From Kribbella sp. VKM Ac-2569 (GTDB taxonomy: Bacteria; Actinomycetota; Actinomycetes; Propionibacteriales; Kribbellaceae): 64,000 nucleotides of DNA. Below the pieces are notes generated by a model. That model had not been told where the DNA came from and searched no databases. It saw only the letters and a program-made list of their open reading frames with translations. The position numbers and the translations under genes are program-made. The stretch is taken from contig NZ_SGXJ01000007.1 of assembly GCF_004216905.1 (NCBI RefSeq), forward strand, positions 248,001-312,000. Direction: 5' to 3'. Positions 21,691 through 55,197 of the stretch are shown here, piece by piece (position 1 is the stretch's first letter; each line of letters begins with the position of its first letter).

Positions 21691-22206
21691 TCAGGCGCCG
21701 GCGGCCTCGGACGATTCCTCGACGTCACCCTTCGCCTCTGGGTTCAGCACACCCCAGGAGATGAAGCGCTCGGTCAGCGTCGTCGGCGATTCGTCGTAGA
21801 TCACCGCGAGCGTCCGCATGTCGTCCTGACGGATCGACAGCACCTTGCCGTTGTAGTCCCCACGCTGAGCCTGGATCGTGGCCGCGTACCGCGTCAGCGG
21901 ACCGGCCTCGCTCGCGTCGAGGTGTTGCAGGGCCTCCAGGTCGAGGATCAACCGGGGAGGAGCGGCAGCCGCGGCAGCCGCGCTGGCGGACCCAGGGAGC
22001 AGCTCACGGATCGGCACGCCGTAGAAATCGGCGAGCTCTGCGAGCTTCTGGACCGTGACGGCTCGATCGCCGCGCTCGTACGAGCCGACGACAACCGCCT
22101 TCCAGCGACCCTTGGACTTCTCTTCCACGCCATGCAGCGACAAACCTTGCTGCTGGCGGATGGCACGTAGCTTGCCACCCAGTGTCTTCGCGTATTCGCT
22201 CGGCAC
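21691..22206 (-). CDS. bldD: Developmental master regulator BldD
   Basis: 171 residues. An N-terminal XRE-type HTH (TLGGKLRAIRQQQGLSLHGVE to about 70) is joined by an alanine-rich linker to the C-terminal c-di-GMP domain. That domain holds the exact signature RGD-X8-RQDD (RGD 115-117, RQDD 126-129), which in Streptomyces binds a c-di-GMP tetramer to dimerise BldD and repress sporulation genes. The start is GTG 22206, preceded by GGAGGG. A perfect BldD-box match lies upstream, so autorepression is likely. A nusB-bldD-pyrR neighbourhood is conserved in mycelial actinobacteria. Confidence 0.96.
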   Translation of the reverse strand: MPSEYAKTLGGKLRAIRQQQGLSLHGVEEKSKGRWKAVVVGSYERGDRAVTVQKLAELADFYGVPIRELLPGSASAAAAAAAPPRLILDLEALQHLDASEAGPLTRYAATIQAQRGDYNGKVLSIRQDDMRTLAVIYDESPTTLTERFISWGVLNPEAKGDVEESSEAAGA

Positions 22207-22280
22207 GCTGGTTCTTCCCTCCGATTAGTTTCGTCATGTCCGGCCCGCAGGGAACGGGCCGAAAGGTGAAACCCCCCTCG

Positions 22281-22295
22281 ATTACACAGAGTAAC
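22281..22295 (-). promoter_or_regulatory. BldD box upstream of bldD
   Basis: attacacagagtaac fits every fixed position of the published 15-bp consensus nTnACnC(A/T)GnGTnAn. On the bldD strand it overlaps TGTAAT, a candidate -10. BldD bound with c-di-GMP would block its own transcription here. Confidence 0.82.
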
Positions 22296-22365
22296 AATAT
22301 TCTGGGTCGGAGGCCAGCGTCAAGACGGCGTGTCACATCCGATACCATGTCAAGCGGTCCGAACG

Positions 22366-22403
22366 TCCTTTAAAGACCCGTCCAGAGAGGCGGGAAAGGA
22401 GGA
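22366..22403 (+). promoter_or_regulatory. PyrR-binding RNA hairpin sequestering the pyrR ribosome-binding site
   Basis: tcctttaaag, then the conserved gtccagagaggc loop region, then gggaaagga reproduces the classical PyrR anti-antiterminator element. The 3' arm AAAGGA (22395-22400) is part of the Shine-Dalgarno AAAGGAGG and pairs with TCCTTT (22366-22371). The ATG follows at 22413. UMP-loaded PyrR stabilising the hairpin would block translation of the coupled operon. No separate terminator is seen. Confidence 0.85.
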
Positions 22404-22412
22404 ACGGTAGCG

Positions 22413-23009
22413 ATGAGCCCTGCCCAGAGCGCAGAGCACCCTGAGACCGCGCAGCCGCCGAAACGCAGCAGCCGCGAGGTCCTCGACGCTTCCGACATTT
22501 CCCGGGCACTGACCCGGATCGCCCACGAGATCCTCGAGCGGAACCGCGGCGCAGACCCGGTCGTCCTGCTCGGCATCCCCAGCCGCGGAGTCCCGCTGGC
22601 ACAACGCGTCTCGGCCCGGATCCAGGCCGTCGAGGGGCAGAGCGTGCCGACAGGGTCACTCGATGTGACCATGTACCGCGATGACATCGGTCTCAAACCA
22701 CCACGTGGCCTGGAACACACCGATATCCCGGCGGACGGTATCGACGGCAAGGTCGTGGTGCTCGTCGACGACGTGCTGTTCTCCGGCCGGACGATCCGCG
22801 CCGCCCTCGACGCGCTCAGCGACATCGGCCGCCCGCGCGCCGTCCAGCTCGCCGTCCTGGTCGACCGCGGCCACCGCGAACTGCCGATCCGCGCCGACTA
22901 CGTGGGCAAGAACCTGCCGACGTCCCTGGTGGAGCGCGTCACCGTCCACCTGACCGAGTACGACGGTCAAGACGCCGTACTGATCGCTGACAAGGGGGCG
23001 AAGGGCTGA
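22413..23009 (+). CDS. pyrR: Pyrimidine operon regulator PyrR
   Basis: 198 residues; RNA-binding regulator with the phosphoribosyltransferase fold and usually some uracil phosphoribosyltransferase activity. The PRPP loop [20 protein letters not shown] is at about 110-130, and [14 protein letters not shown] near 50. An N-terminal extension of about 20 residues ([14 protein letters not shown]) is disordered. It is first gene of the pyr operon behind its own binding element; its stop overlaps pyrB (TGATG), so repression of pyrR translation should spread downstream. Confidence 0.95.
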
Positions 23010-53874: not shown

Positions 53875-55197
53875 TTACAGCCCGATGTTCTTGAAGGAGT
53901 TGGCCAGGGTGGCGTTGAACAGGGCGCTCGCGGGGATGTTCTTCGGGCCGTCGGTGACGTTGCCGCGGCTGTTGAAGCGGCGCTCGTTGAACACCTCGAA
54001 GATCGCGATCGTGCCCTTCGCCTTGTCGTAGCCGCGGCCGACCTGGTAGTGCCCGCTGTGGTTGAAGGCGAGGTACGGGAAGTACCGCTTCAGCAGCTGC
54101 ACGTGCTCGATCACCGGGGCCTTGTACACGCCGAGGTGCTTCTGGTGCACGGTGAAGAAGGTCTGCGCGTTCCAGTTCGAGACGTTCTGCACGATGTACG
54201 TGCCGGCGGTCTTGGGCCACGCGGTCTTCAGGTTCGTTTGCTTCACCATCGCGGAGATCGCCGTACCGGACGTCGTCGAACCGAGGTCCTTCGCCCAGGA
54301 CGCCTGGGTGTCCTTCTGGTTGTCGTCAGCCCAGTCGATCGACTGGAAGGTCGCCGGACCACACCAGTAGCCCTTCTCCTGCGAGGTCTGGAACCCCTTC
54401 ATGATGTACGCCGACGCAGGCGCGGCGACCGGCGCCACCGGAGTCGACGGCACGGGGGTCGGCGTATCCGAGGTAGGAGCAGTTCTGGTCGGCACCGGAG
54501 TTGAAGTCGGCGTCGGCACCGGAGTCGGCTCCGGGGTGGGGCTTGGAGTGGATTCCGCGTTCGGCACGGGGTTGGGTGGCGGGGTTTCGGTCTCGGCGAG
54601 TTCGCGGAGTTCGCGGGCCTTTGCGCGGCCGTTCCAGGCGGCTTCCATCTCGTCGAGTTCCGCGGTGACGCGTTGGCTCTTCGGCAGCGCGGCGCGCTCG
54701 GCGACGAACGCGGCCGGCGTCAGATCACCGGTCGCGATGTCCTGCTCGGCACCGACCTCGTCCGCGGCGCGGAGGTCCGGTTCGACCATCATCGCGTGCC
54801 GCTGGGCGCCGGTCGGCACCTGGCTGACGAAGCCGAGGCCGAGGCAGTAGTTCTCGGTGTCGAGCTTGAAGCACCGGAGCATCGAGGCAGCCTGCGCCGA
54901 GGTGTCAGCCGACCTGAGCTGCACATCACCCGGCGAGCTCTCGGTGACCTGCTGCACCACCTCACTCCACGACCGCGCGGGAGCCTCCCCGGGCACTCCA
55001 GCGGTAGGCGCAGAAGGGGCCGACGACGTGGGGGTGGGCGTCGCAGTAGATGGCGGCGCAGTGGTCGGCGGCGCGGTAGGTAGCGGCGCGGCGGGCCCTG
55101 CGGGGTCGCGCGGTTGGTAGGCCTGGGCGGTGAGGGGTGCCTGGGCGAGCAGTGCACCCAGGAGGATCAGAGTTGCCCCCCGTGCTGCTGTGAGCAT
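53875..55197 (-). CDS. Secreted C39-like cysteine peptidase
   Basis: 440 residues. A signal peptide ([19 protein letters not shown]) precedes a Pro/Thr/Ser linker, a domain of unknown type (about 75-210), and a second Pro/Thr/Ser linker. The C-terminal papain-like C39-type domain carries the cysteine in [14 protein letters not shown] and the histidine in [16 protein letters not shown], with an aspartate or asparagine expected near FEVFNERRF. It resembles secreted C39-like proteases of actinobacteria, not bacteriocin ABC exporters. Co-transcribed with the lipoprotein gene downstream; its target is unknown. ATG 55197 was selected for the signal peptide. Confidence 0.8.

Follow-up and report, generated by a model that had tools for sequence, protein, structure and literature searches.

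A single BldD box at the bldD promoter of Kribbella, a genus in which SsgA-family and WhiG proteins were not detected

The window analysed here, a whole stretch of 64 kb, corresponds to G000:C7:248001-312000 of an 8.4-Mb Kribbella genome. It carries bldD, flanked by efp and nusB on one side and by the divergent pyrR on the other, with which it shares an intergenic region (Table 1). The coordinate 22295, given in the preliminary description as the end of the feature, marks the end of the box and not that of the gene. A candidate RNA hairpin of the PyrR-binding type, outside the BldD system, lies in the pyrR leader. Its match reached 31.6 bits against a gathering score of 54 (E 0.13), and the leader fold is weak (z -1.30), with 17 of 200 shuffles as good, so that the fold alone is not significant. 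The hairpin would extend into the Shine-Dalgarno region of pyrR, a position that points to control of the pyr operon by PyrR at the level of translation. Elsewhere in the window, ARAGORN predicted a tRNA-Arg with anticodon GCG (54569-54652, forward strand), which is probably false because Rfam gave no tRNA match at the gathering score.

Table 1. Features of the bldD-pyrR region, in window coordinates
Feature	Position	Strand	Basis
bldD coding sequence, GTG start, 171 aa	21691..22206	-	ORF list; profile and structure matches
c-di-GMP signature RGD-X8-RQDD, RGDYNGKVLSIRQDD, residues 115-129	21820..21864	-	sequence; positions counted by hand
Shine-Dalgarno-like GGAGGGAAG of bldD	22214..22222	-	sequence; kept in Kribbella alignment
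BldD box, 15-mer ATTACACAGAGTAAC (read on the forward strand)	22281..22295		consensus match; upstream conservation
13-bp core of the BldD box	22282-22294		within the 15-mer
Candidate -10 hexamer TATTGT	22294..22299	-	promoter-pair scan; invariant in Kribbella alignment
Candidate -35 hexamer TTGACG, 18-bp spacer	22318..22323	-	TTGAC invariant in Kribbella alignment
PyrR-binding-type RNA hairpin, pyrR leader (below gathering score)	22366..22400 or 22402	+	RF00515
pyrR, divergent	22413..23009	+	ORF list; profile match

The identification of the gene as bldD, already made in the preliminary description, is well supported, and the gene is the Kribbella orthologue. The NCBIfam equivalog NF050110 (TransRegBldD) gave a full-length match over residues 1-162 with 294.6 bits against a cut-off of 250. 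Both domains were recovered in Pfam, an XRE-type DNA-binding domain (PF01381/PF13560) and BldD-like_C (PF21179, 3.8e-36), and in the PDB, where 2ewt (the BldD DNA-binding domain) matches residues 1-71 and 5khd (the C-terminal domain) residues 82-162. The protein shares 99% identity with BldD of Kribbella soli and K. pratensis, which places this soil actinomycete in Kribbella (family Kribbellaceae, order Propionibacteriales).

The ligand motif RXD-X8-RXXD, as defined in the excerpted text of PMC4151990, is present in Kribbella BldD, and the RGD-X8-RQDD form claimed for it is exact. The other c-di-GMP contact residues named in those excerpts are conserved, as read off the PDB alignment. The phosphate contact Lys84 is replaced by Arg, which also occurs at this position in other homologues (PMC4151990). 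We compared 120 bldD rows: 39 from Kribbella (35 distinct upstream sequences, some genomes maybe being present under two names), 6 from a sister family in the order, f4 (by elimination probably Actinopolymorphaceae; 6 fetched out of 8 bldD-bearing genomes), and 75 others, mostly Streptomyces, which are the best of a larger list. The signature is kept in identical form in 38 of the 39 Kribbella rows, as RKED or RKDD in all 6 f4 rows, and in 75 of the 75 other rows (best of a larger list). One of the 38 Kribbella genomes, G002, a single contig, has a frameshift at about codon 100 that splits bldD and parts the DNA-binding domain from the c-di-GMP domain, with the upstream box intact (L125, G002:C1:150300-151900). 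This split is either a real truncation or a sequencing error.

We scanned the window with nTnACnC(A/T)GnGTnAn, which we take to be the full BldD box consensus. The 15-mer at 22281 fits all fixed positions, as had been claimed, and is the sole match in the 64-kb window, where 0.17 were expected. A match somewhere in the window is unremarkable alone, because 16 of 100 shuffled windows had at least one; extrapolated from the window rate, about 5e-4 matches would be expected in the 206-bp gap between bldD and pyrR. The box also overlaps the candidate -10, in agreement with the preliminary description, the last base of TATTGT being the first base of the core (22294). On the reverse strand the TTGACG-18-TATTGT pair ends at 22294 (shuffles averaged 0.0), and an alternative pair, TTGACG-16-AATATT, ends at 22296. 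As the first of these pairs ends on the first core base, the footprint of a dimer would run from about -7 to +6, a numbering that rests on an inferred start site. The window scan, the Kribbella alignment and the upstream rows all place the box in bldD's own promoter.

The core TNAC(N)5GTNA, as printed in PMC4151990, precedes bldD in all 120 rows (39/39 Kribbella, 6/6 f4 and 75/75 others, the last being the best of a larger list), and the reversed core in none of the 120, 75 of which are the best of that list. All 39 Kribbella rows carry TTACTCTGTGTAA upstream of bldD. The perfect consensus occurs there in 39/39 Kribbella, 0/6 f4 and 62/75 other rows (again the best of a larger list). In the Kribbella alignment all core bases are invariant, including the half that lies beyond the -10. 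The leader from the box to the Shine-Dalgarno sequence is largely variable, and the stretch upstream of the box, on the pyrR side, is also well conserved. Because the box partly overlaps the -10, some of its conservation is promoter conservation. Judged from the aligned sequences, the box at the bldD promoter is under strong selection. The autoregulatory site proposed beforehand is well supported by this recurrence of the core, and negative autoregulation of Kribbella bldD is very likely by analogy with S. coelicolor, for which autorepression of bldD has been published (PMC5650626, in part). The prediction had already been made for sporulating actinomycetes (PMC4151990 and PMC4255298, in the portions available).

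Within Propionibacteriales, a BldD match was obtained in 66 of 196 genomes. Judged on identity and length, orthologues account for 46 of them, from 38 Kribbella (including the frameshift-split one) and 8 f4 genomes, and the remaining 20 are weak matches with 23-48% identity. The two large families without a BldD orthologue are presumably Nocardioidaceae and Propionibacteriaceae, by elimination. SsgA-family proteins (PF04686) were found in 0 of 11 Kribbella genomes. The built-in controls of this search gave no signal, and a separate positive control recovered the family in 10 of 10 comparison genomes, including five of f4. WhiG (TIGR02479) did not exceed the cut-off in any of 38 Kribbella genomes (best about 125 bits vs 189.6). 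It did so in two of three Streptomyces, in 0/5 f4 and in 0/2 Actinomadura; in the third Streptomyces (G198, Streptomyces sp. P3; L260) the whiG-like gene consists of two overlapping pieces in different frames. WhiG is thus absent, too, from relatives in which SsgA-type proteins persist. The excerpts of PMC4255298 describe Nocardioides as the sole holder of WhiG in that paper's node-6 branch and report SALP losses in several branches. Hyphae of K. flavida fragment into rod to coccoid elements, and the species is listed as nonsporulating (PMC3035274, in part). As the SsgA family and WhiG were not found, the Streptomyces sporulation regulon as it stands is excluded. The expectation of whi and ssg targets, to be sought by a box scan beside such genes, was not borne out in the form proposed, given the counts of 0/11 for SsgA and 0/38 for WhiG. 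Of the c-di-GMP-controlled development that had been predicted, the ligand motif and the autoregulatory site stand; the whi/ssg outputs do not, and K. flavida is listed as nonsporulating.

Perfect boxes number 14 in the genome that contains the window vs 3 for the reversed pattern, and 188 vs 71 in 11 pooled Kribbella genomes. This enrichment of about 2.6-fold implies that a good part of the perfect matches outside bldD are chance. Reading the perfect boxes as a regulon was rejected, as the 14 sites do not lie beside classical developmental genes, bldD excepted. We clustered 74 box loci, these 14 together with 60 sites of four further Kribbella genomes (15 of 16 in G099, 19 of 20 in G111, 18 of 19 in G075 and 8 of 22 in G051; the other six genomes were not included). 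Among the 74, one site only is common to all five genomes, at ftsI-murE. It was also set aside: the box seems to span the murE start codon, and coding constraint explains it equally well. Two further candidates were rejected, the box of L004, which lies inside a histidine-kinase reading frame, and that of L006 (about 1501-1513), which sits within a longer palindrome before a MerR/GyrI-like gene and is probably that regulator's operator. The L006 case calls for care in reading consensus scans.

Each of 11 Kribbella genomes has 5-8 GGDEF matches (64 in total), from which we drew 30 cyclase loci for reading. In the 104 kb of these 30 loci the core occurs 25 times vs 5 for the reversed core. One cyclase gene, GAF-PAS-GGDEF (479 aa in the window's genome), has the domain order of Streptomyces CdgB (PMC6205966, PMC11012013, both in part), and its putative CdgB orthology rests on that order; cdgB is described as a direct BldD target in Streptomyces in the consulted part of PMC4151990. 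TCAC(N)5GTGA lies 33 bp upstream of the GAF-PAS-GGDEF start codon in 7 of 10 loci, including that of the window's genome (L229, 2952-2964), and the reversed core in none of the 10. The eight core positions are kept and the middle five are variable; these cores are without the C-W-G centre and have 2-3 mismatches to the full consensus, which occurs in 0/10 loci. Three of the 10 have no core. The gene is a possible surviving link to the Streptomyces BldD regulon.

Four further groups were graded as leads, not as claims. In 3 of 4 loci a second cyclase gene (GGEEF) is preceded by a core at a distance of about 70 bp, with one mismatch in the window's genome, and this core may be part of a -35. A third cyclase class has two overlapping cores, 10 bp apart, about 290 bp before a GGDEF frame in 4 of 4 loci (L245, L250-L252). 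Upstream cores were found neither in the 11 loci of another cyclase class nor in L253. In 15 of 22 loci a core lies about 70 bp before the start of a secreted Amidase_2 gene, with a perfect box in 11 and the reversed core in 0, the other 7 having none; the query matched 24 of 38 genomes, and G108 and G051, with 70 and 49 bases matched, were left out. At the Amidase_2 promoter (L266, G000:C1) a stretch of about 40 bases with a perfect box is nearly identical in several Kribbella genomes. Before the rpsF operon a core at about -200 was found in 15 of 30 loci, with a perfect box in 8 of the 30, and no core in the other 15 (7 further matched genomes were not included).

For ftsZ, an intact upstream core occurs in 0 of 5 Kribbella genomes; a one-mismatch core is common to all five, and in G051 a core lies within the coding sequence. 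Of 23 WhiB-family loci in three Kribbella genomes, all but the 5 in groups G and H were read. The WhiB-like group B, guessed to be WhiB, has an upstream core in 0 of 3 loci. Group A has a core far upstream in 3 of 3, and group C one directly before the Shine-Dalgarno sequence in 3 of 4 (L339, just before the ATG at 1450). Next to the group C gene in L339 no bldM-like gene can be seen.

In combination, these results make it highly probable, in our judgement, that Kribbella BldD represses its own gene through a single promoter box under high c-di-GMP, and that this arrangement has been kept without the Streptomyces sporulation set. Orthology, the intact ligand motif, the promoter-like pair and the selected box were observed directly; ligand-driven dimerisation, binding and the sign of regulation would follow those of Streptomyces. 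At high c-di-GMP, four molecules of the ligand would bridge two BldD C-terminal domains, and the resulting dimer would bind the single palindromic box covering about -7 to +6 of the bldD promoter, block initiation and so limit the level of BldD. The remaining regulon may comprise BldD itself and c-di-GMP synthesis, through the CdgB-like gene with its core box, and further outputs are possibly to be sought in growth, stationary phase or hyphal fragmentation. A bolder extension, which we regard as rather unlikely, is that the c-di-GMP-BldD switch, with its feedback onto the CdgB-like cyclase, outlived the SsgA family and WhiG and today sets the timing of hyphal fragmentation rather than of spore formation, partly by controlling the secreted cell-wall amidase directly.

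A different protein might act at the same sequence. In S. coelicolor MtrA represses bldD and protects its promoter from -28 to -4 (PMC5650626, in part), and it could act at the Kribbella box region likewise. We consider this very unlikely: the MtrA direct-repeat motif given in the excerpts of that paper occurs with 1 mismatch in 63 of 69 Streptomyces-type promoters (among the matches listed), whereas the best Kribbella match has at least 3 mismatches in 38 of 39 rows (3 in 12, 4 in 25, 5 in 1) and 2 in one row. In addition, purified MtrA of S. venezuelae did not bind the bldD promoter according to the portion of PMC13189361 available. The box might also be retained by a BldD that represses independently of c-di-GMP, as the failure to find WhiG and the SsgA family in the Kribbella genomes tested and the out-of-frame ligand domain of G002 would allow. 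This is less likely still, given that 38 of 39 Kribbella rows have the identical ligand motif and that GGDEF proteins are present in 11 of 11 genomes.

Because a single 206-bp gap is common to bldD and pyrR and is conserved well outside the box in Kribbella, the box could alternatively be chiefly an operator of the divergent pyrR operon, with bldD autoregulation secondary. The box overlies the bldD -10 at a distance of about 118 bp from the start of pyrR, and pyrR has a PyrR-type leader hairpin of its own (below the gathering score), which makes this the least likely of the readings weighed here.

Our searches of the open-access literature returned no study of binding, expression or ligand for Kribbella BldD; Kribbella and BldD appear together there in the review PMC4255298 alone, and Kribbella and c-di-GMP in no article, as far as the text available goes. 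What is new lies in the comparison: the promoter has one box where Streptomyces has two, and the switch is intact in a genus without detected SsgA family and WhiG. BldD, a master regulator that senses c-di-GMP in Streptomyces, has been described as a sporulation brake in sporulating actinomycetes. The Kribbella type species is listed as nonsporulating, yet its genus has the ligand motif and the self-repression site unchanged. Kribbella is therefore a natural test of what the c-di-GMP-BldD pair is for when the spore programme is reduced.

Kribbella BldD resembles that of Streptomyces coelicolor and S. venezuelae in both domains, in the ligand motif and in having a box core at its own promoter, and the Kribbella gene order is presumably that of Streptomyces, nusB-bldD-pyrR. 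A possible further likeness is the core box that 7 of 10 Kribbella loci have before the CdgB-like cyclase gene. By contrast, two outputs of BldD in Streptomyces, the SsgA family and WhiG, were not found in the Kribbella genomes tested. BldD of Saccharopolyspora erythraea, likened here via papers and not by sequence, is another BldD from a genus other than Streptomyces, and its mutant is bald (PMC3878487, PMC4255298, both in part); it differs in its study context, erythromycin clusters in a sporulating genus. Closer to Kribbella, in the same order, f4 has an orthologue at 73-75% identity; one box core, TCACGCTCCGTGA, is present in each of the 6 rows fetched out of 8 genomes. The f4 family differs in its signature, RGD-X8-RKED or RKDD, and in having kept an SsgA-family protein in 5 of 5 genomes tested.

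The bldD promoters themselves differ most clearly. Two cores are present in 69 of 69 Streptomyces-type records among the matches listed (named Streptomyces, Kitasatospora and Embleya and one Streptosporangium), spaced by 15 bp in 68 and by 16 bp in one, whereas Kribbella has a single core, with two in 0 of 39 rows. A one-mismatch core lies 41 bp upstream in all 39. Among the matches listed, two cores were found in 0/6 f4 and 0/4 Actinomadura records, and two metagenome bins have two, 15 and 79 bp apart. The MtrA motif overlaps the Streptomyces boxes and is degraded in Kribbella. The Streptomyces arrangement, a bldD promoter with two boxes that the MtrA motif overlaps, is thus not general.
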